Shown: positions 43,440-58,596 of the stretch, piece by piece | Numbering within the stretch: the first letter of the stretch is position 1 | Layout: each line of letters starts with the position of its first letter | Source: an uncultured Massilia sp. | Lineage (GTDB): Bacteria > Pseudomonadota > Gammaproteobacteria > Burkholderiales > Burkholderiaceae | DNA length: 64,000 nucleotides | Assembly (NCBI GenBank): GCA_946886065.1 | Contig: CAMPHU010000001.1 | Span: forward strand, 1-64,000 | Direction: 5' to 3' | Translations under genes and position numbers: made by a program | Notes under the pieces: model-generated | Told to the model about the DNA's origin: nothing | Databases searched by the model: none | Seen by the model: the letters and a program-made list of their open reading frames with translations, nothing else

Positions 43440-43468
43440 TTGACAGGCAAGCGCGGCGGCGGCATACT
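43440..43468 (+). promoter_or_regulatory. Promoter of the cellobionate-type carrier gene
   Basis: TTGACA (43440-43445), a 17-base spacer and CATACT (43463-43468), with the LacI-type operator starting nine bases further on. Confidence 0.75.
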
Positions 43469-43477
43469 TGCGAGATA

Positions 43478-43491
43478 TGTTAGCGCTATCA
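43478..43491 (+). promoter_or_regulatory. LacI-type operator at the carrier promoter
   Basis: TGTTAGCGCTATCA, a near-perfect palindrome with central GC, just downstream of the -10. The same 14 bases in the same orientation relative to transcription occur before the gluconokinase gene (49475-49462). It is the likely site of the LacI-family repressor at 49520-50548. Confidence 0.8.
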
Positions 43492-43557
43492 ACTTTAGCA
43501 TGGCTGGGCGCTGATAAAAGCGGGGCCGGTCCCCGCATACCAATAACGGAGACGATC

Positions 43558-44979
43558 ATGCTGACACGTGAGGACGCAAGCCCAGGCTGCGCCACGCCCG
43601 CCCCGCCTTCCAGCCCGGGCGCCGCCGCGCCGCCGGCCGCCGCCGCGCTGACCTGGCGCGAAAAGCTCAGCTACGGCGTCGCCGACATGGGATTCAACTT
43701 CTTCTGGACCAATGTCGCCACCTTCCTGCTGATCTTCTATACCGACACTTTCGGCATCTCGGCCGCCGCCGCCGCGACCCTGATGTCGGTCATCAAGATC
43801 GTGAATGCCTTCACCGATCCCATGATCGGCGCCGCCGCCGACCGCACGGCGACCCGTTTCGGCAAGTTCCGCCCTTACCTGGTGTGGATGTCGGTGCCGC
43901 TGGGCGCCGCCGCCGTGCTGACCTACACCACGCCCGACCTGGAGGGAGACGCCAGGCTGGCCTGGGCCTACGGCACCTACCTGATGATGATGGTCTGCTA
44001 CACCTGCGTGAACATCCCCTACAACGCGCTGTCCGGCGTGATGTCGGCCGATCCGCAGGAACGCTCGACCATCAATGGCCTGCGCTTCATCTTCGCCTTC
44101 GCCGGATCGACCCTGGTCACCGCCGCCACGCCCTCGATGGTGCAGTGGCTGGGGGCCGGCAACGAAGCGCGCGGCTGGCAGCTCACCATGCTGGCCTGGA
44201 GCGTGGCCGCCGCCCTGCTGTTCCTGGTCACCTTCCTCAATACCCGCGAGCGCGTGACGCCGATGCCGGGCCAGGAGTCGGACGTGAAGCGCGACATCCT
44301 GGACCTGATGGCCAACCGTCCCTGGATGGTGCTGTTCGTGCTGGCCCTGGTGATCATGGTGACCATCACCCTGCGCACCACCACCGCCGCCTATTACTTC
44401 AAGTACGTGGTGGGACGCCCGGAACTGATGGCCAGCTTCGTGCCCACCTACATGGTGGCCGCCGCGATCGGCGCGGCCTGCACGCCCCTGCTCACCCGCT
44501 TCGCCGACAAGAAGACCCTGATGATCGTGTTGATGAGCGCGACCGCGCTCCTGTCATCGAGCTTCTTCTTCATTCCGCCGGAGCGCATCGACCTGATGTT
44601 CGCGCTGCAGGCCGGCCTGGGGCTGGTGCTCGGGCCCAAGTCGCCGCTGGCCTTCTCGATGTACGCCGACACCGCCGACTACAACGAATGGCGCACCGGC
44701 CGCCGCGCCACCGCCATGACCTTCGCCGCCGCCACCTTCTCGCAGAAACTCGGCACCGCGCTGGCCGTGGCCGTGATCGGCTCGGTGTTCACCGCCCTCG
44801 GCTACGTGCCCAACGCCGCGCAGAGCAGCGGCTCGCAGGCGGGCATCGTGTGGCTGATGTCCTTCGTGCCGGCCGCCTTCGCGCTGGCGGCGGTGCTGAC
44901 CATGTGCTTCTATAACCTCGACAGCAAACAGCTGGCCCGCATGCAGGCAGACCTGGCCGCGCGCAAGGCCGGAACATGA
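43558..44979 (+). CDS. GPH-family sugar:cation symporter, probable cellobionate carrier
   Basis: A 473-residue, 12-helix carrier of the glycoside-pentoside-hexuronide (MelB-like) family, with [23 protein letters not shown] (split; about 81-103) holding the cation-site Asp and the RxGKxRP motif. It imports a sugar or sugar acid with H+ or Na+. Because a GH94 phosphorylase gene overlaps its stop (ATGA) and a gluconokinase shares its operator, cellobionate or a related beta-glucoside acid is the likely cargo. The ATG at 43558 has GGAG ten bases upstream. Confidence 0.88.
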
Positions 44980-44990
44980 ATGGAGACCCG

Positions 44991-47339
44991 ATGCTGAACC
45001 CCACCGAGAACGGCGCCCGCTACGAACTGCACAGCCCCACCGCCATGCCCAAGGCGGGCGGCTTCCTGTGGAACCGCAGGATGATGATCCAGGTGACCTG
45101 CCGCGGCTACGCCACCGCCCAGTTCATGCAGCCGGAACCGGCCAAGTACTCGTACGCGCCGAACCTGGAAGCGAAGACCTTCATGCAGCCGGAACAGGCC
45201 TACTACGCCCACCACCCGGGCCGCTTCTTCTACGTCAAGGACGAGGAGACCGGCGAGCTGTTCTCGGCGCCCTACGAGCCGGTGCGCGGTGGCGTGGACC
45301 GCTTCGTGTTCTCGGTCGGCCGCAGCGACCTGCGCTGGACCGTCGAGAAGCTGGGCATCCGCGTCGAACTCACCCTCGGCCTGCCGGTCGAGGACGTGGC
45401 CGAGCTGTGGACCCTGGCGGTCACGAATTTATCCGGCCGGCCGCGCCGCATCAGCGTCTACCCGTATTTCACGGTCGGCTACATGTCGTGGATGAACCAG
45501 TCGGCCGAGTACCGCGCCGACCTTGGCGGCATCGTGGCCTCCTGCGTCACGCCCTACCAGAAGCTGCAGGACTACTTCAAGAACCGCCTGTTCAAGGACA
45601 AGACCTTCCTGCTGTGCGAAACCGCGCCCGAGGCCTGGGAAGCGAGCCAGCCCGCCTTCGAAGGCGAAGGCGGGCTGCACGCGCCCTCCGCGCTCGAAGA
45701 GGAACTGCTGGCCGGCGGCGACGCGCGCTACGAGACGCCGGTGGCCGCCGTGCAGTACCGCCTGGCCCTGGCGCCTGGCCAGGCCGAGCGCCGGCGCTTC
45801 CTGTTCGGCCCCGCCTACGACGACGCCGAGATCGCCGCGCTGCGCGCGCGCTACCTGAGCGCGGAAGGCTTCGCCGCCGCCGCGCAGGCCCAGGAAGCCT
45901 ATATCGACGAGGGCAGCGGCTGTGTCAGCATCGAGACGCCGGACAAGGAGCTGGACAACTTCGTCAACCACTGGCTCGCGCGCCAGGTCTACTACCACGG
46001 CGACGTCAACCGCCTGAGCACCGATCCGCAAACCCGCAACTACCTGCAGGACAACATGGGCATGGCCTTCGTCAAGCCCGGGGCGGCGCGCGCCGCCTTC
46101 CTGCACGCCCTCTCCCAGCAGGAAGCGGGCGGCGCGATGCCGGACGGGATCCTGCTGTTCGAAGGCGCGGAGCTCAAGTACATCAACCAGATCCCGCACA
46201 CCGACCACTGCGTCTGGCTGCCGGTCTGCCTGCGCGCCTATCTCGACGAGACGGGCGACTACGCCATCCTGTCCGAGCCTGTCACGGCCCCGGACGGCAC
46301 GCGCACGGCCTTCGAGCGCATCTCGATGGCGATGGACTGGCTGCTGCACAAGCGCGACCACCGCGGCCTGAGCTACATCGAACAGGGCGACTGGTGCGAT
46401 CCGATGAACATGGTGGGCTACAAGGGCCGCGGCGTGTCCGGCTGGCTGACGGTGGCGGCGGCCTATGCCCTCAATCTCTGGGCCGAGGTCTGCGATGCGC
46501 GCGCCGACGCGGCCCTGGCCGCGCACTTCCGCGCCGGAGCGGCCGCCATGAACGCGGCGGCCAACGCCCACCTGTGGGACGGCGCCTGGTTCGGGCGCGG
46601 CATCACCGACGACGGCGTCAAGTTCGGGGTCGCCGCCGACACCGAGGGACGCATCTACCTGAACCCGCAGAGCTGGGCGATACTGGGCGGCGCCGCCAGC
46701 GCGGAACAGCGCGCCCTGATGCTGGAGCAGATCGACGCCCAGCTCGACACCCCCTTCGGCGTGCAGATGTTCGCCCCGCCCTACAGCAGGATGCGCGAGG
46801 ATGTCGGCCGCGTGACGCAGAAGCATCCCGGCTCGGCCGAGAACGGCGCGGTGTACAACCACGCCTCGGTGTTCTATATCTACAGCCTGTACACGGTGGG
46901 CGAGACCGAACGCGCCTTCGACGCCTTGCGCAAGATGATCCCCGGGCCGGGCATGGAAGACTATCTGCAGCGCGGACAGCTGCCGGTCTTCATCCCCAAC
47001 TACTACCGCGGCGCCTGGAAGGAGTACCCGCGCACGGCGGGGCGTTCGAGCCAGCTGTTCAATACCGGCACGATTTCCTGGGTCTACCGCAGCGTGATCG
47101 AAGGCCTGTGCGGCCTGAAGGGCGATGCGCGCGGCCTGCGCATCGCGCCGCAGCTGCCGCAAGGCTGGCCCGGCATGAAGATCGTGCGGCGCTTCCGCGG
47201 CGCGACCTTCCACGTGGAGGTCACGCGCGGTTCGGGCAACGGCGTGCAGGTCGTGTGCGACGGCGTGGTGCTGCCTGCGGGCCGCATCGAGGGCATCGAG
47301 GCCGGCCGCAGCTACACGGTCGCCGTCCTGGTGCCCTGA
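44991..47339 (+). CDS. GH94 glycoside phosphorylase, probable cellobionic acid phosphorylase
   Basis: A 782-residue GH94 enzyme. The N-terminal beta-sandwich (about 1-290) contains [19 protein letters not shown]; then comes the (alpha/alpha)6 barrel with catalytic-region [16 protein letters not shown] (acid Asp near residue 467), and a C-terminal jelly roll. Length and the opening motifs resemble cellobionic acid phosphorylases, which split cellobionate to alpha-glucose-1-phosphate and gluconate. That fits the gluconokinase nearby. A cellobiose, chitobiose or laminaribiose phosphorylase is the alternative. I chose the ATG at 44991, with GGAG six bases upstream; the ATG at 44976 overlaps the carrier stop and is also possible. 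Confidence 0.8.
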
Positions 47340-47352
47340 ACGCAGGGCCGCT

Positions 47353-47607
47353 TCAGTCGCCCGGCCCCTCGCCGGGCATGGTGTCGGCCATCAGGCGCAG
47401 CTCTTCCGGCGTGAGTTCTTCCGGCTTCTTGCCCTCGAGGCCGTCCACGTCGGCGGGCATGCGCTCCTGCGCCTGCTGCTGGCTGCCTGCCTGTTCTCCC
47501 TGCTGGTTGCCGGGGTCCGGGAGGGACTCCTGCCGGGTGCCTACCCGCAGATCGGTCTGCTGCACATTGCCGTTCTGCAGGTTCTTGTTCTGCTGATCGT
47601 TCGCCAT
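47353..47607 (-). CDS. Small hydrophilic Gln/Asn-rich protein
   Basis: An 84-residue protein of low complexity: a Gln/Asn-rich N-terminal half (NDQQNKNLQNGNVQQ), a Pro/Gly linker and an acidic C-terminal helix (GKKPEELTPEELRLMADTM). No signal peptide, membrane segment or known domain. A GGGAG ribosome site precedes the ATG at 47607. Likely disordered; function unknown. Confidence 0.65.
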   Translation of the reverse strand: MANDQQNKNLQNGNVQQTDLRVGTRQESLPDPGNQQGEQAGSQQQAQERMPADVDGLEGKKPEELTPEELRLMADTMPGEGPGD

Positions 47608-47680
47608 GGTGGTCTCCCTGCTGCGCACTGGTTTGGAAAAACCAGTGTGGCACAGAGCCCGTTCCGACGGCGTCCGGCTG

Positions 47681-48469
47681 CTAGACCACCTCGTTCCAGG
47701 TGGGCTTGCTGATGTAGGGCCGGGTGTACTCGCAAACCATGCCGTCGTATTCCGACACCGTCTTGCTGCCGTCCTTGAGCACGTAATGCAACTGCCTGCA
47801 GGGCGTGTCGCCGATCGGATGATCGCCGATGCTGGTGATCGACACATGGTATTGCGTGCCCTTCCAGCTCACGCTCTCGCCGCGCTTCAGGCCCGCCAGC
47901 AGCCTGGGAAACTCGACCGGGTAGTCCGCGCCCTTCCTGAGCAGCGAATGGCCGCCCCAGGCGTCGAAATAGTAACCGCCTTCGCAGCCCTGGCAGCGGA
48001 TCTTGCTGGCGTCGCGGAAGGCGTACTTGGCTTCGCGCGCCTGCTTGAATTCGAAGTCGCGGAAGCTGCCGACCGGGCACTGGGTGTTTTCCGGCCACAG
48101 GCCGGCGGGCTCGAAGCTGTCCGGCCTGGGGCCGAGCAGCAGCTTGGCGCCCTTCATCCGCTTGCAGCCGGCCGGCAGCGGCGGCTTGGCGGCTACCTGG
48201 GGCGCGGCCAGCTGTTGCGCCGCGGCCGTCTCGGGCGGACGGGCAGCGTCGTCCGGCTGGGCGGCCACGGCCTGGGCCTGGGCCGGTTGCGCCGCCCCCT
48301 CGAAGGCGCGGTCGATGGCCACGGTCACCGCGCGGTCGACATTGCCCGACACGGCGGCGCGCGCCGCATTGGCGGCGGATTGCTTGAGGAAGTCGCCGAA
48401 GGACTGCGCCTGGGCGTTCAGCGACAGGCAGGCGCCCGTCAGCAGGAGGATGCGTTGGATCGTGTTCAT
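47681..48469 (-). CDS. Uncharacterised secreted protein
   Basis: A 262-residue protein with a signal peptide (MNTIQRILLLTGACLSLNAQ, cleavage near AQA). An Ala-rich linker (about 40-95) is followed by a globular domain with six cysteines, including IRCQGCEGGYYFDAWGG (about 153-169), which could be two disulfides. No known family is recognised. It faces the opposite strand to the carrier and GH94 genes and is not obviously part of that pathway. Confidence 0.75.
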   Translation of the reverse strand: MNTIQRILLLTGACLSLNAQAQSFGDFLKQSAANAARAAVSGNVDRAVTVAIDRAFEGAAQPAQAQAVAAQPDDAARPPETAAAQQLAAPQVAAKPPLPAGCKRMKGAKLLLGPRPDSFEPAGLWPENTQCPVGSFRDFEFKQAREAKYAFRDASKIRCQGCEGGYYFDAWGGHSLLRKGADYPVEFPRLLAGLKRGESVSWKGTQYHVSITSIGDHPIGDTPCRQLHYVLKDGSKTVSEYDGMVCEYTRPYISKPTWNEVV

Positions 48470-48691
48470 GGAGGCCCCCGGAATTGGTGAAGGCAGCCGC
48501 GCAGGAAGGGTCCGGCTTCCTGCGCCCGCTGGCAAACCCGAAGTCTAGTGCGGGCGCCGCCCGAGGTCCCACATCACCGGTGGGGGGAAATTCGTGCCAA
48601 AGATGCGCAAATTTCAGTGAAATTGTGATTTTGTGCAACCATTTGTAACCGGCAAGCATGGTAGGCTACATCTTTCGCCCGGAGGACATGA

Positions 48692-48931
48692 ATGGGATCC
48701 AAATTGGAAAGCCAGTGGTGGTACGGTGGCCTGGTGACGGCCCTGTCCATGCTGTCGACACGGCTCGTGTTCGAGTCGGCGGGCTTGCCCCTGCCGGAGA
48801 ACCTGGCCCAATGGATCCTGTGCGCCTTCTGCTTCACCTGCATGTGGCGCTGCTTTTCCTTCCTGGGCTGGCTGACCGTCCTGCTCGTCGCGCCCGCTTC
48901 CAGGCTCCTGGAACAGACCCTTCCCCGCTAA
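48692..48931 (+). CDS. Small membrane protein
   Basis: A 79-residue protein with one or two hydrophobic segments (about 13-25 and 40-68), several Cys and Trp in the second, and a good GGAGGA ribosome site five bases before the ATG at 48692. No known domain. It is convergent with gntK, and the two stops overlap by four bases. Confidence 0.6.
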   Translation: MGSKLESQWWYGGLVTALSMLSTRLVFESAGLPLPENLAQWILCAFCFTCMWRCFSFLGWLTVLLVAPASRLLEQTLPR

Positions 48932-49452
48932 CGCCCGCTTCCTGCGCTGGCCAGGATGCGCCCGACCAGGGTGTCCGGATCCTCGCCCGCGTCGAGCGTG
49001 ATGCCCGCTTCGTCCGCCTGCAGCGGCTCCAGCGTGCGCAGCTGGCTGTCGAGCAGCGATGCCGGCATGTAGTGCCCCGGACGGCCGCGCATGCGCGCCT
49101 CGATCAGGCCGCGTTCTCCGGCCAGGTGCGCGAATCTCACCTGGCCCGGCGCGTCTCCTGCCCCGCGCAGGATGTCGCGGTAGGCGCGCTTGAGCGAAGA
49201 GCAGGACAGCACGATGCCCTTGCTGCCGGCATGCGCGATCTCGGCGCGCAGCGCTTCCAGCCAGCCCTGGCGGTCGGCATCGGTCAGCGCGATCCCGGCC
49301 GACATCCTGGCCACGTTCTCCGGCGAATGGTAATCGTCGCCTTCCACGAAGGGCGCGTCCAGCGCCGCCGCCAGCCTGGCGCCCACCGCACTCTTGCCGC
49401 AGCCGCTGACGCCCATGACGACCCAGGCGATGCCCTTTTCCTTGATATCCAT
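48928..49452 (-). CDS. gntK: Gluconokinase
   Basis: Phosphorylates gluconate to 6-phosphogluconate, which enters the Entner-Doudoroff or pentose phosphate route. The 174 residues show the shikimate-kinase-like P-loop GVSGCGKS (14-21), EGDDYHSPENVARM (about 37-50) and RGRPGHYMPASLLDSQ (about 122-137), diagnostic for GntK. ATG at 49452. Its promoter carries the operator found before the carrier gene, so it is co-regulated with cellobionate uptake although it lies on the other strand. Confidence 0.95.
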   Translation of the reverse strand: MDIKEKGIAWVVMGVSGCGKSAVGARLAAALDAPFVEGDDYHSPENVARMSAGIALTDADRQGWLEALRAEIAHAGSKGIVLSCSSLKRAYRDILRGAGDAPGQVRFAHLAGERGLIEARMRGRPGHYMPASLLDSQLRTLEPLQADEAGITLDAGEDPDTLVGRILASAGSGR

Positions 49453-49461
49453 ACCTTGCAG

Positions 49462-49475
49462 TGATAGCGCTAACA
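49462..49475 (-). promoter_or_regulatory. LacI-type operator at the gluconokinase promoter
   Basis: On the minus strand TGTTAGCGCTATCA, identical to the site at 43478-43491 and placed seven bases after the -10. It is the expected target of the adjacent LacI-family repressor. Confidence 0.8.
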
Positions 49476-49482
49476 AAGATGC

Positions 49483-49511
49483 AGGATACGCGTCTTCCAT
49501 GACGCTGTAAA
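49483..49511 (-). promoter_or_regulatory. Promoter of gntK
   Basis: On the minus strand TTTACA (49511-49506), a 17-base spacer and TATCCT (49488-49483). It lies in the 67-base gap after the LacI gene stop. Confidence 0.7.
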
Positions 49512-49519
49512 GCCCGGTA

Positions 49520-50548
49520 TCAGGTGCTTTCGCGCTGGCGCAAGGTGAAGCCGAGGTCGATGCGTTGCTGTTCCGGCTCCTTGCCGGCGATGACCTGCAG
49601 CAGCAGCTTGGCGGCCTCGAAACCGATCCGGTAGCGCGGCGTATCGATCGTGGTCAGCGAGGGCACCATCAGCGCCGACGCCGGCAGGTCGTTGAAGCCG
49701 CAGATCGCGACCCGTTCAGGCACCGGGATGCCGCGCCGCTGGCAGTGGTAGATGGCGCCGTGGGCCAGGTCGTCGTTGCAGAAGAAGACGGCGTCGCAAT
49801 CGGGCACATCGGCCAGCATGCGCTCCATCAGTTCCGCGCCCAGTGCGATGGTGGACGGCGTCGGCACCATGATCTCCAGGCGCGGATCGGCCAGCCCGGC
49901 CGCCTGCATCGCCTGGCGGTAGCCGTCGGCGCGGCGCAGGGTACGCTCGTCGAGCTGGGCGCCGACGAAGGCGATGCGGCGGTAGCCCTTGTCGATCAGG
50001 TGGCGCGTCATCTCGAAGCCCGCGTCCAGCTGCGAAAAGCCCACCGACAGCGTGTCGGGGCTGCTGGCCAGGTCCATCATCGACACTACCGGCACGCGCG
50101 AGCTGGCCAGCATCTGCGCCACCGGCGGGCTGTGCGTAATGCTCGTCAGCAGGATGCCGTCCGGGTTCGACTGCAGGTAGACGCGCAAGAGCTTTTCTTC
50201 CTCGGCGTCCGAATAATGGGTGTTGCCGATCAGGAGCTGGTAGCGGCTGGGGCCGACCGCATCGTGGATGCCGTCCAGGACCGCCGGGAACACGGCGTTC
50301 GACAGCGAAGGCACCAGCACCACGATCACATGCGATTGCGCCGATGCCAGCGCGCGCGCGGCGCGGTTGGGTACGTAACCGAGTTCGCCCACCGCCTGCT
50401 CCACCTTGGCGCGGGTCGCTTCCGACACCAGCTGCGGCTGACTGAGCGCGCGCGAGGCCGTCATGATCGATACCCCCGCCAGTGCCGCTACCTGTTCCAG
50501 CGTGGTACGCCCGGTGCCTCTTGCTTTTCCGCCGCTACTTCTGCTCAT
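49520..50548 (-). CDS. LacI-family transcriptional repressor (GntR-like)
   Basis: A 342-residue regulator with a HTH and hinge (about 15-68: TLEQVAALAGVSIMTASRAL...GYVPNRAARALAS) and a periplasmic-binding-protein-like effector domain. Sequence style fits the gluconate repressor GntR group. Two identical operators flank its regulon: the sugar carrier and gntK. The likely inducer is gluconate or a cellobionate product. I take the ATG at 50548, the most probable HTH-proximal start; upstream in-frame codons read through non-coding sequence. I see no operator copy before its own gene. Confidence 0.9.
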   Translation of the reverse strand: MSRSSGGKARGTGRTTLEQVAALAGVSIMTASRALSQPQLVSEATRAKVEQAVGELGYVPNRAARALASAQSHVIVVLVPSLSNAVFPAVLDGIHDAVGPSRYQLLIGNTHYSDAEEEKLLRVYLQSNPDGILLTSITHSPPVAQMLASSRVPVVSMMDLASSPDTLSVGFSQLDAGFEMTRHLIDKGYRRIAFVGAQLDERTLRRADGYRQAMQAAGLADPRLEIMVPTPSTIALGAELMERMLADVPDCDAVFFCNDDLAHGAIYHCQRRGIPVPERVAICGFNDLPASALMVPSLTTIDTPRYRIGFEAAKLLLQVIAGKEPEQQRIDLGFTLRQREST

Positions 50549-50748
50549 TTGATTCCTGTGTGAGTTCTTATCGTTATACAGCCATGTTTCGGCCGCCGGC
50601 CTGCCGGACCACCTCGATTGCGCCACGCTTTGGTTATCTTGTCAATATCTCACGGATAAGACGACGTTTTCTGACGCGCGTGCGCAGCAGCATGCGTGCT
50701 GTCCTTGACGCTCCCCGGAGGCCTGCGGCAGAGTGCCTGCATTGCCAG

Positions 50749-51987
50749 ATGCATCCAGCCTACATGCCCGCCGATTACCAACAGCCTCCCGCCGACGTCC
50801 AGCCCGCCGTCCCCTCCTCTTCCTTCGACGAACGATACAAGCAAGCACGCGATCTCGCCAACAGCGGCCAGCCTGCCCTGGCCCTGGCCGCCTATGACGC
50901 GCTGCTGGCGCGCTCGCCGGGCAACGCCGACGTGCTGCTGGGGCGCGGCATCGCCTTCACGCGCCTGGAGCGCTGGAGCGAGGCGGAAGCCGACCTGAAG
51001 GCGGCGGCGAAGGCCTCGCCCGCCTACGCCGACGTCTGGTCCGCGCTGGGCAACCTGTACCAGTGGAGCGGCCGGCCGGAACAAGCCATCGATGCCTATG
51101 CGCGCGCGATCGCGCTGCAGCCGGACGACCCTGCCGGCTACCTGGCGCGCGCCCGCGTCCTGCGCGCCGCCGGCCGCGCCGCCGATGCGCGCGCCGACCT
51201 GGCGCGTGCGCGCAGCCTGGGTGCCGACGCCGCCGGGATCGACGCCATGCTGGCATCGATGCGTCCGCGTCCCGGCACGCCCGAAGCCGCCATCGCCGAA
51301 GGCTATTCCTGGGCCGCCAGCCTGTCCTCGACCTGGACCAGGCTGGGCGACAACCCGCGCTGGAACGAGCAGACCGCCAGCGTGCGCCATTATGGCAGGC
51401 TCGGCTCGGTCGCCTTCGAGACCTTGCGCGCGCAGCGCTTCGCGCAGACCGGCCACGCCTGGGCGCTGGACGCCTACGCCACGCTGTGGAACGGCGCCTA
51501 TGCCAATATCCGCTACCAGCGTGCGCCCTCGGCGCGCCTGTTCCCGGCCAACGCGGGCCGCATCGAGCTGTATCAGGCCATCGGCGGCGGCTGGGAAGTC
51601 TCGCTCAGCGACGACGTGCTCGGCTTCGGCGAGCGCGTCAACATCTACGGCGTGAGCCTGGCGAAGTACAGCGGCAACTGGTACGTCCAGCTGCGCCACC
51701 AGAACATCGTGTCGGCGGCTTCGCACAGTTCGGGCGACCGCCTGCTGGGACGCTACTACTACCGGGGCGATGCCGACAGCTATCTCGAACTCGCGCTGAA
51801 CCGCGGCCGCAGCGACGATCCGCTCTCGCTCGCCGGCGGACGCACCCGCTCGGGCGGCGGCAGCGCCAACCTGGTGCATTATTTTTCGCGCGACTGGGGC
51901 GGCCGCGTGGGCGCCGCGTTCTCGCGCGACAGCGGCGGCGGCGCGCGCGAGCGCAGCCTGAGTTTCGCCGTCCATCGCCGCTGGTAA
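50749..51987 (+). CDS. TPR protein with YaiO-like outer-membrane beta-barrel
   Basis: A 412-residue protein with two to three TPR units (about 22-125: ARDLANSGQPALALAAYDALL...YARAIALQPDD), then a C-terminal region of ~250 residues with alternating strands ending in Trp (VHRRW), as in YaiO-family outer-membrane proteins. YaiO-like proteins are linked to polysaccharide or envelope functions but are poorly characterised. No signal peptide is found after any reasonable start, which is odd for an outer-membrane protein. ATGs at 50749 and 50764 are both possible, and neither has a good ribosome site. A sequencing frameshift or a true start further upstream cannot be excluded. Confidence 0.75.
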   Translation: MHPAYMPADYQQPPADVQPAVPSSSFDERYKQARDLANSGQPALALAAYDALLARSPGNADVLLGRGIAFTRLERWSEAEADLKAAAKASPAYADVWSALGNLYQWSGRPEQAIDAYARAIALQPDDPAGYLARARVLRAAGRAADARADLARARSLGADAAGIDAMLASMRPRPGTPEAAIAEGYSWAASLSSTWTRLGDNPRWNEQTASVRHYGRLGSVAFETLRAQRFAQTGHAWALDAYATLWNGAYANIRYQRAPSARLFPANAGRIELYQAIGGGWEVSLSDDVLGFGERVNIYGVSLAKYSGNWYVQLRHQNIVSAASHSSGDRLLGRYYYRGDADSYLELALNRGRSDDPLSLAGGRTRSGGGSANLVHYFSRDWGGRVGAAFSRDSGGGARERSLSFAVHRRW

Positions 51988-56202: not shown

Positions 56203-58596
56203 GTGCTCAAACTCAAACTGATTCCCCAGTCGCTCGTGCTTGCCCTGTACGGCGGCGCCGCCCTCGCTTCCCTGCTTCCCGCCGCCGCCTTCGCACAAAG
56301 CGCAGCGCCGGCCGTCACCGGCGATGTCGCCACCGTCAGCGTGGTCGGCTCGCGCCGCGTCGGCAACGCCTCGTCCACCGACACCCCGGTGCCGGTCGAC
56401 TTCATCCCCATGACCAAGGCGGCCGAACAAGGCGGCCAGTTCGACCTGGCGCAGGCGCTGACCAACATTTCGCCCTCGTTCAACTCGACCCGCCAGACCG
56501 GCGCGGACGGCGCCGACCTGATCGACTCGGCCGCCCTGCGCGGCCTGGGCTCGGACCAGACCCTGGTGCTGGTCAACGGCAAGCGCCGCCACACCGTGGC
56601 GCTGGTGAACCTGTTCGGCGCCCGCAACCGCGGCAATACCGGCACCGACATGAATGCCATCCCGCTGCTGGCGATCAAGAACGTGCAGGTGCTGCGCGAC
56701 GGCGCCGCCGCGCAATACGGCTCGGACGCGATCGCGGGCGTGATCAACATCGAACTGAAGAAGAACCTGGGCTGCGAATCGGTGCTGGGCTACGGCCAGT
56801 ACACCGAAGGCGACGGCGAGAACTGGCTGGCCTCGGCGTACTGCGGCGTGGCCGTGGCGGGCGGCGTGCTGGGCATCACCGGCGAATGGTACGACCGCGG
56901 CCGCTCGAACCGCTCGGAGCCGGGCAACCCGCGCATCATCGGCGACACCAAGTCCGAGAACCAGACCATCTACCTGAACGGCGAATTCCCGACCGGTCCC
57001 GGCAAGTTCTACTTCACCGCGGGCGCGCAGAAGCGCGACGCCTCGTCGGCGGCCTGGGCGCGCGAAGGCGTGGGCTCGGAGGACATCCCGTCGCGTAACT
57101 CGGCGGCCATGTACCCGGACGGCTTCGTCCCCTTCATCGATGGCGACGTCGACGACCGCTGGGGCACCGTGGGCTACCGCTGGCAAGTGGGCGAATGGAA
57201 TGCCGACCTGTCACAGACCTACGGCTACAACCGCCTGATGTACAACATCAACAACACCCTGAACGCCTCGATCGCCAACCTCGACTTGCTGAATGGCGGC
57301 CCGGGCCGCAGCGCCTCGGCCTTCGACGCGGGCGGCTTCTCGTTCCGCCAGGCGACCACCAACCTGGACTTCAGCCGCTTCTACAACGGCGTCCTGAACG
57401 GCATGAACGTGGCCTTCGGCCTGGAGCACCGCCGCGAGAACTACAAGATCTTCGCCGGCGAACCGGGTTCCTGGATCGACGCCGACGGCGTGGGCGTGGG
57501 CGGCAATGCCGGCAGCCAGGGCTTCCCGGGCTTCCAGCCGGGCGACGCGACCGACAGCGACCGTCACAGCAGCGCCGCCTACATCGACATCGAGACCGAC
57601 GTCAGCGACCGCTTCAAGGTCCAGACCGCGTTGCGCCACGAGCGCTATTCGGACTTCGGTTCGACCACTACCGGCAAGCTGGCCGGCTCCTACCGCGTGA
57701 CCCCGAGCGTGCTGCTGCGCGCCTCGGCCAGCACCGGCTTCCGCGCGCCCTCGCTGCAGCAGGTGCACTTCTCGTCGACCTTCACCGACTTCGTCAGCGG
57801 CGTACCGCTGGACGTGGTGCTGGCGCCGAACGGCGGCCCGGTGGCGAATGCCGCCGGCATCCCGCAGCTCAAGGATGAAGAATCGAAGAGCTTCACCGCG
57901 GGCATCACCTGGTCGCCGACCCAGTCGACCTCGGTGACGGCCGACCTGTACCGCATCGACATCGACGACCGCATCGTGCTGTCGGGCCGCTTCGATGAAG
58001 AGAACTACCCGGCGCTGGGCGCCACCCTGCGACAGCTGGGCGTGGGCCAGGCGCAGTTCTTCGTCAACTCGGTGGACACCAAGACGCAGGGCCTGGACCT
58101 GACGGTGTCGAACCGCGCCGACCTGGGCGCCGGCAAGCTGAGCACCTTCCTGGCCATGAACTTCAGCAAGACCGAAGTAAGGAACGTGAAGGCCCCGGCC
58201 GCGCTGGCGGGCTTCGAGGACGTGCTGCTGTCCGAGCGCGAGCGCCTGTTCATCGAGGAAGGCGCGCCGCGCCGCAAGGCCACCCTGGGCTTCGACTACA
58301 GCCTGAACAAGTTCGAGACCTCGCTGCGCATCATCCACTTCGGTCCGCAGACCCTGGGCACCTTCTCGGGCCCGCCGGTGCCGAACCAGAAGTACGACGC
58401 CAAGACCTCGGCCGACCTGTCCTTCACCTGGGCCTTCACCGACAAGACCAAGCTGACGGTCGGCGGCACCAACATCTTCGACGTCAAGCCGACGGCACAG
58501 GATCCGAACGAAACCGACAACGGCTTCAAGTACGAGAGCGTGCAGTTCGGCCTGAATGGCGCATCGGTGTTCGCGCGCCTGTCGCACAAGTTCTGA
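56203..58596 (+). CDS. TonB-dependent outer-membrane receptor
   Basis: A 797-residue ligand-gated barrel with a signal peptide (about 1-31, AFAQS) and a plug domain (about 45-180: VSVVGSRRV..., QVLRDGAAAQYGSDAIAGVINI near 163-184). A 22-strand barrel follows, ending in Phe (ARLSHKF). A TonB box is not obvious. The start is a GTG at 56203 with CGGAGA upstream. It takes up a siderophore, oligosaccharide or another large solute; the class cannot be fixed from the motifs. An upstream palindrome suggests control by a LacI-type regulator. Monocistronic with its own terminator. Confidence 0.93.
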   Translation: MLKLKLIPQSLVLALYGGAALASLLPAAAFAQSAAPAVTGDVATVSVVGSRRVGNASSTDTPVPVDFIPMTKAAEQGGQFDLAQALTNISPSFNSTRQTGADGADLIDSAALRGLGSDQTLVLVNGKRRHTVALVNLFGARNRGNTGTDMNAIPLLAIKNVQVLRDGAAAQYGSDAIAGVINIELKKNLGCESVLGYGQYTEGDGENWLASAYCGVAVAGGVLGITGEWYDRGRSNRSEPGNPRIIGDTKSENQTIYLNGEFPTGPGKFYFTAGAQKRDASSAAWAREGVGSEDIPSRNSAAMYPDGFVPFIDGDVDDRWGTVGYRWQVGEWNADLSQTYGYNRLMYNINNTLNASIANLDLLNGGPGRSASAFDAGGFSFRQATTNLDFSRFYNGVLNGMNVAFGLEHRRENYKIFAGEPGSWIDADGVGVGGNAGSQGFPGFQPGDATDSDRHSSAAYIDIETDVSDRFKVQTALRHERYSDFGSTTTGKLAGSYRVTPSVLLRASASTGFRAPSLQQVHFSSTFTDFVSGVPLDVVLAPNGGPVANAAGIPQLKDEESKSFTAGITWSPTQSTSVTADLYRIDIDDRIVLSGRFDEENYPALGATLRQLGVGQAQFFVNSVDTKTQGLDLTVSNRADLGAGKLSTFLAMNFSKTEVRNVKAPAALAGFEDVLLSERERLFIEEGAPRRKATLGFDYSLNKFETSLRIIHFGPQTLGTFSGPPVPNQKYDAKTSADLSFTWAFTDKTKLTVGGTNIFDVKPTAQDPNETDNGFKYESVQFGLNGASVFARLSHKF

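Follow-up and report, generated by a model that had tools for sequence, protein, structure and literature searches.

Organization of the locus

The DNA analysed here is a 64-kb stretch from a Massilia sp., the whole of which we refer to as the window. The gene order in the region of interest is a BCCT-family transporter gene (minus strand), a carrier-GH94 gene pair (plus strand), a reading frame at 47681-48469 (minus strand) and a gntR-gntK tandem (minus strand), in which gntR comes first and the second of 2 putative operators occupies the gap between the 2 genes (Table 1). An earlier note on this DNA had described the clustering of a GPH carrier, a GH94 enzyme, a gluconokinase and a LacI repressor, and the profile scores given below bear out these family assignments. 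By eye, the start of the carrier gene was placed most probably at the ATG at 43558, and not with an open frame that begins before operator 1; likewise, the most likely start of gntK is the ATG at 49452. The GH94 gene starts at either 44976 or 44991, and the open frames of several relatives begin at the equivalent of the latter position.

Table 1. Genes and putative control elements of the carrier-GH94 and gntR-gntK region, in window positions
Feature	Position	Strand	Basis
GPH-family cation symporter, probable cellobionate importer	43558..44979	+	MFS_2 and TIGR00792 matches
GH94 protein, cellobionic acid phosphorylase (CBAP) by sequence	44976..47339	+	4zle, PF17167, conserved residues
Gluconokinase (gntK), GntK/IdnK type	48928..49452	-	TIGR01313, PDB 3t61, 1knq
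LacI-family gluconate repressor GntR (gntR), by sequence	49520..50548	-	NF052440, PDB 3h5o
Sigma-70-like promoter of carrier-CBAP pair	43440..43468	+	TTGACA, 17 nt, CATACT
Putative GntR operator 1, TGTTAGCGCTATCA	43478..43491	+	near expected transcription start
Putative GntR operator 2, identical 14-mer upstream of gntK	49462..49475	-	motif search and conservation
Sigma-70-like promoter of gntK	49483..49511	-	TTTACA, 17 nt, TATCCT

A genome scan turned up 519 stretches that encode relatives of the GH94 protein, and we kept the best 80 as related loci; the closest among these 80 is that of Massilia sp. ST3 (GH94 91%, carrier 93%, gntR 95%, gntK 79%). The protein encoded at 47681-48469, between the GH94 gene and gntK, has a possible signal peptide, as judged by eye, and is without any Pfam or NCBIfam match; an equivalent was seen in only one of the best 80 loci, L001 (69%). 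The neighbour of gntR, at 50584-51987, encodes a TPR protein with a YaiO-type outer-membrane barrel, and similar genes are present in L001, L002 and L008.

The GH94 protein, the carrier and the gluconokinase

In a search of solved structures, the GH94 protein matched the Saccharophagus degradans structure 4ZLE with 1220.8 bits over residues 9-787, as compared with 203.5 bits for the next solved relative, a chitobiose phosphorylase; its score against Pfam PF17167 was 199.7 bits. The PDB name of 4ZLE is putative b-glycan phosphorylase, and the protein is listed as a cellobionic acid phosphorylase in the accessible portion of a review (PMC8950772). We observed that residues Q195, D475, R612 and K616 of the window protein are kept in 81/81 orthologues, ie those of the 80 loci and the window. 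Of these residues, Q195, R612 and K616 are the positions on which Gln190, Arg609 and Lys613 of 4ZLE fall by alignment, and it is these 3 residues of the Saccharophagus enzyme that reportedly, in work of Nam et al. from 2015, bind the acid group of the substrate. The aspartate of the GDWCDP motif, D475, is presumably the catalytic residue. At the positions of R612/K616, printed alignments gave F/V for chitobiose phosphorylase and Y/Y for cyclic glucan synthase, and the cellobiose phosphorylase 3qde, read via a bridging protein, has E/Y. By sequence, the GH94 protein is nearest to characterised CBAP and not to CBP, ChBP or NdvB, and it is predicted to split cellobionate by phosphorolysis to glucose 1-phosphate and gluconate. 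The resemblance to cellobionic acid phosphorylase that had been remarked on earlier is upheld both by the gap in bit scores and by the invariance of the acid-binding residues.

The carrier, scanned from 43468, matched Pfam MFS_2 with 304 bits and exceeded the cut-off of the GPH model TIGR00792 (378.1 vs 231.35 bits); it scored 127 bits against the melibiose carrier in the PDB. As judged from its family and its company, this GPH symporter probably imports cellobionate. The gluconokinase was likewise over the TIGR01313 cut-off (174.9 vs 113.75 bits), and its matches in the PDB included 3t61, Gluconokinase (130.8 bits) and 1knq, Gluconate kinase (98.4 bits).

The repressor and its putative operators

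The LacI protein scored 526.4 bits against the NCBI GntR equivalog NF052440, for which the cut-off is 400 bits, and 357.4 bits against PDB 3h5o, 'Transcriptional regulator GntR'. By these sequence comparisons the protein is GntR, the gluconate repressor, and because it scores as GntR its likely effector is gluconate, together with 6-phosphogluconate by analogy with Pseudomonas aeruginosa. The accessible text on the latter organism gives the GntR operator as 5'-AC-N-AAG-N-TAGCGCT-3' and reports release by gluconate and 6-phosphogluconate (PMC5902321); that on P. plecoglossicida describes GntR footprints, 5'-AG-N2-AGCGCT-N-TCT-3', upstream of gntR, gntK and gntP (PMC12195362). The core of these published operators (TAGCGCT/AGCGCT) is also seen in the 14-mer of the window.

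There are exactly 2 copies of the 14-mer, TGTTAGCGCTATCA, in the 64 kb, and they lie 9 and 7 nt past the -10 elements of 2 promoter-like sites; copy 1 precedes the GPH carrier-GH94 pair and copy 2 precedes gluconokinase. Both copies, and both promoter-like sites, were thus located where the earlier note had placed an identical 14-mer right after the -10. Its remark that the copies share the same orientation carries little weight, since the 14-mer is self-complementary at 12/14 positions. With up to 3 mismatches allowed, there were 4 strand-matches in the window, which is not unusual (mean of 2.38 in shuffled sequence, with 18/100 shuffles reaching 4). The relaxed pattern TGNTAGCGCTANCA, searched without mismatch, gave 2 matches, at the same 2 places, and none in 100 shuffles. 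In the segment 43300-50800 we found 3 sigma-70-like sites vs 0.9 (sd 1.0) in shuffles, the third being on the minus strand at 43372-43345. Upstream of gntR in the window, there was no match to the 14-mer at up to 3 mismatches; the gene lacks a site of its own here, unlike its autoregulated Pseudomonas counterpart, and some relatives, L023, L028 and L046 among them, have one. We have treated autoregulation as not defining for a LacI-type GntR.

Conservation at related loci

The carrier gene lies upstream of the GH94 gene, on the same strand and within 1 kb, in 76/80 of the related loci. A gntR-like gene is present in 69/80, gntK in 52/80, and carrier, gntR-like gene and gntK together in 49/80, counts in which some loci are cut by contig ends and distant LacI proteins are included among the 69. 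Many Duganella loci have all 4 genes on a single strand, in the order gntR-gntK-carrier-GH94. Of the loci tested, 2 (L024 and L045) have a GH3 glycosidase gene after GH94 and one (L002) has a TonB receptor gene there.

Forty-six loci encode a GntR that is at least 65% identical to that of the window, and in 45 of these a site with at most 2 mismatches is present at an operon head, the exception being L045. Sites in the 46 loci had a density of 1.02 per kb at operon heads (95 sites) vs 0.011 per kb elsewhere, and 8 of the 10 sites outside operon heads were just beyond gntR. Within this group, a site was found upstream of gntK in 28/28 loci and within 400 bp upstream of the carrier in 36/45; shuffled carrier-upstream sequence gave 0/900. 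The 9 loci without a site so close to the carrier are L020, L023, L024, L028, L029, L037, L040, L045 and L046; when operon heads in general are counted, all of these except L045 have one. Among the 34 loci with a GntR below 65% identity or with none, a site was seen upstream of the carrier in 3/30 and upstream of gntK in 10/22, vs 1/600 in shuffles. The Roseateles/Pelomonas loci keep the genes, with a gntR-like product of ~47-51% identity; at up to 2 mismatches, the palindrome was not found in them.

The 14 columns of the site average 1.73 bits upstream of the carrier and 1.80 bits upstream of gntK, vs 0.12-0.34 in the flanks; the rows of this alignment (38/46 carrier loci, 28 gntK loci and the window) were chosen for having a site with at most 2 mismatches, and the conservation of the site in it is therefore partly a matter of selection. 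By eye, a similar -35/-10 pattern precedes the site in many relatives.

In L004, L006, L007, L009, L011, L012, L014 and L015, a GntR-type site lies ~75-240 bp past the end of gntR. No gntK was detected in these 8 loci; the site there may be a relic or may control something small.

A probable larger regulon in relatives

We scanned 12 CBAP-bearing genomes with TGNTAGCGCTANCA and found 32 places, 1-4 in each, as compared with 16 for the reversed control. Since the excess over the control is no more than twofold genome-wide, single far-off copies prove nothing, and it is the positions of the copies that make the argument. Of the 32 places, 18 are at the CBAP locus, 11 lie ~1-4 kb upstream of a GntP permease (11 genomes) and 3 are elsewhere; the twelfth genome, G002, has one-mismatch sites upstream of its gntP operon (L116). 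This operon includes a second gluconokinase gene, gntK2, in 12/12 genomes and a TonB-dependent receptor gene in 10/12, the gene families having been checked for L102. At least 2 sites with up to 2 mismatches are associated with the gntK2-gntP operon in all 12 (L102-L104, L106-L108, L111-L116); they are 142-166 bp apart, with spacings of 159 bp in 6 genomes and 165-166 bp in 4, a spacing at which a repression loop could form. More widely, a GntP permease is encoded in 23/29 CBAP-bearing genomes.

The GntR regulon is thus probably larger, as judged from site positions, than the 2 sites of the window. The two-site regulon proposed earlier stands for the window itself and does not extend to its relatives, which carry a further operon with such sites. 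When the L102 permease was used as a tblastn probe on the window (E 1e-3), no GntP-type permease was found, and the gntK2-gntP operon was likewise not found, as the gntK2 probe matched the known gntK only; a TonB receptor probe gave a single weak match (32% over 158 residues, at 56314).

Two further occurrences of the motif may be mentioned. At L110:5986, the exact 14-mer is upstream of a gene for a TonB receptor 62% identical to that of the gntP operon. At L105:7520, a near-identical site is upstream of a TonB receptor-GH1-GH9 cluster, beside a divergent LacI gene whose product is below the GntR cut-off, which suggests that, in these genomes, different LacI proteins may have overlapping operators. 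The L105 site and the reversed control (16 vs 32) led us to reject the view that every copy of the motif is controlled by GntR.

Linkage of gntR and CBAP across the family

We also sampled 145 genomes from the family of genome G001, which, with G015, was already known from the CBAP loci. CBAP orthologues (at least 71% identity) were present in 9 of the 145, G001 and G015 included; the remaining matches were at most 31% identical, and most were in very long frames of ~2900 residues, a length that fits NdvB-type cyclic glucan synthases. GntR was over the cut-off in 46/145 genomes, and each of the 9 CBAP genes has an over-cut-off gntR no more than 3.3 kb away. Of the 37 genomes with GntR and without CBAP, 12 loci were read: gntK was within 5 kb in 10 of them, and 8 of these 10 have the site. 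As gntR without CBAP is thus mostly accompanied by gntK and the site, the role in gluconate metabolism looks the older one, and the simplest history would be that of an old gntR-gntK unit whose control later took in the carrier-CBAP pair.

A model for control of the module, and alternatives to it

We consider it likely, and hold with good confidence, that the locus serves cellobionate catabolism, that it is controlled by the ordinary gluconate repressor, GntR, and that gluconate induces it. What the analysis shows is the gene identities, by family scores, and the site with its conservation; the substrate of the carrier, the activity of the enzyme, and GntR binding and its effector are what we infer. 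In the model, the steps of which draw on family knowledge and published GntR work, the GPH symporter would import cellobionate, which the GH94 enzyme would convert with phosphate, in the cytoplasm, to glucose 1-phosphate and gluconate, and gluconokinase would convert gluconate to 6-phosphogluconate. Where each of the 2 transcripts begins, GntR would occupy the 14-mer until freed by gluconate, perhaps also by 6-phosphogluconate, and its release would raise carrier, CBAP and gluconokinase. Freed in this way, GntR would allow the module to be induced by its own reaction product and also by free gluconate, and the switch would reset as gluconokinase drains gluconate to 6-phosphogluconate. Cellobionate use and LacI control through the 14-mer had both been anticipated in the earlier note, and support for both comes from the sequences and residues, from the gene neighbourhood and from conservation of the site in relatives.

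The same genes could be read with a repressor that senses cellobionate itself, gluconate being merely a metabolite. One of the 2 sites in the window does precede a disaccharide carrier, and the window yielded no GntP-type permease by tblastn; however, the margin of the LacI protein over the GntR equivalog cut-off, the sites that relatives have upstream of gntK2 and gntP, and the company that GntR mostly keeps with gntK where CBAP is absent (10/12 loci) make such a repressor improbable. We regard as quite unlikely, too, that the enzyme naturally acts on some other acid disaccharide, for example cellobiouronate (glucosyl-glucuronate) derived from polysaccharides, which the same acid-binding subsite could accommodate. 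When run in reverse, the Saccharophagus enzyme is reported in the same work of Nam et al. from 2015 to use glucuronic acid, too, as acceptor, but a gluconokinase and a gluconate repressor are what is linked to the enzyme here. That this is a plain cellobiose or cellodextrin phosphorylase locus, with which it has the GH94 family in common, we dismiss as exceedingly improbable, the solved cellobiose phosphorylases scoring ~1000 bits below 4ZLE and a cellobiose phosphorylase having E/Y in place of R612 and K616; on these 2 grounds, identity as a cellobiose phosphorylase was rejected.

The source of cellobionate

For the preferred model, that of a module induced by gluconate through GntR, the source of cellobionate was considered in 29 CBAP-bearing genomes, from 30 of the 80 loci with L026 left out. 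The LPMO family searched for was AA10, and none was detected in 27/29 genomes, the 2 with AA10 being those of L050 (Cellvibrio mixtus, 6) and L052 (Massilia frigida, 1). On this AA10 count, an LPMO of the organism's own was rejected as the source. The more likely suppliers of cellobionate are other organisms or other oxidases, and most bacteria with the module probably scavenge it. As for the earlier note's link to LPMOs, the chemistry bears it out, but given these 27 genomes the link is an indirect one. Membrane PQQ dehydrogenase had matches in 18/29 genomes and was over the cut-off in 5/29, and it provides no general answer as an aldonate source. GH9, to which many cellulases belong, is present in 23/29.

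We put forward more tentatively, and as somewhat the less probable outcome, that in Massilia and its kin this one repressor serves as a sensor of oxidised cellulose. It would then govern cellobionate uptake and splitting, 2 gluconokinases, a gluconate permease and a TonB receptor, maybe for aldonates, in mostly AA10-less bacteria living on cellobionate from fungi or other users of LPMOs.

Relation to known systems and significance

With Saccharophagus degradans CBAP (Sde_0906, 4ZLE) the window protein shares a near full-length match, the same acid-binding residues and the same predicted reaction; XCC4077 of Xanthomonas campestris is a further known cellobionic acid phosphorylase. The accessible literature on the Saccharophagus and Xanthomonas enzymes makes no mention of GntR control or of linkage to a carrier and gluconokinase. 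The LacI-type GntR regulon of P. aeruginosa and P. plecoglossicida has the same repressor model, the TAGCGCT/AGCGCT core and gntK as a likely target in common with the window, and gntP is a likely GntR target in the relatives, as in Pseudomonas. Unlike the Pseudomonas regulon, a disaccharide-acid carrier and CBAP have a site here and gntR in the window has none, and in 10/12 of the relatives tested the gntP operon includes a TonB receptor gene.

Neurospora crassa carries out the same steps by means of a carrier, CBT-1, a phosphorylase, CAP, and a gluconokinase, but this is a fungal system with an MFS carrier and its own LPMOs, and the accessible part of the report mentions no GntR control (PMC4537572). 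Escherichia coli likewise provides a bacterial example of cellobionate use, via AscB, although in the available text its authors hypothesised a phospho-beta-glucosidase route and not phosphorolysis (PMC4403981). A bacterial link of GntR or LacI to cellobionate was not found in the literature covered, which takes in accessible parts of PMC12076931 and PMC7564387 and few subscription papers. The enzyme, CBAP, and the gluconate regulon are already known; what would be new is a cellobionate module within GntR control.

LPMOs release aldonic ends from cellulose, and to our knowledge the bacterial consumers of these products have been little studied. A conserved bacterial module with a likely regulator would provide a genetic marker for users of cellobionate, and the prediction is that bacteria can live on it even when they have no AA10 LPMO. 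If the model is true, a repressor of central metabolism has been reused to sense a disaccharide via one of its cleavage products.
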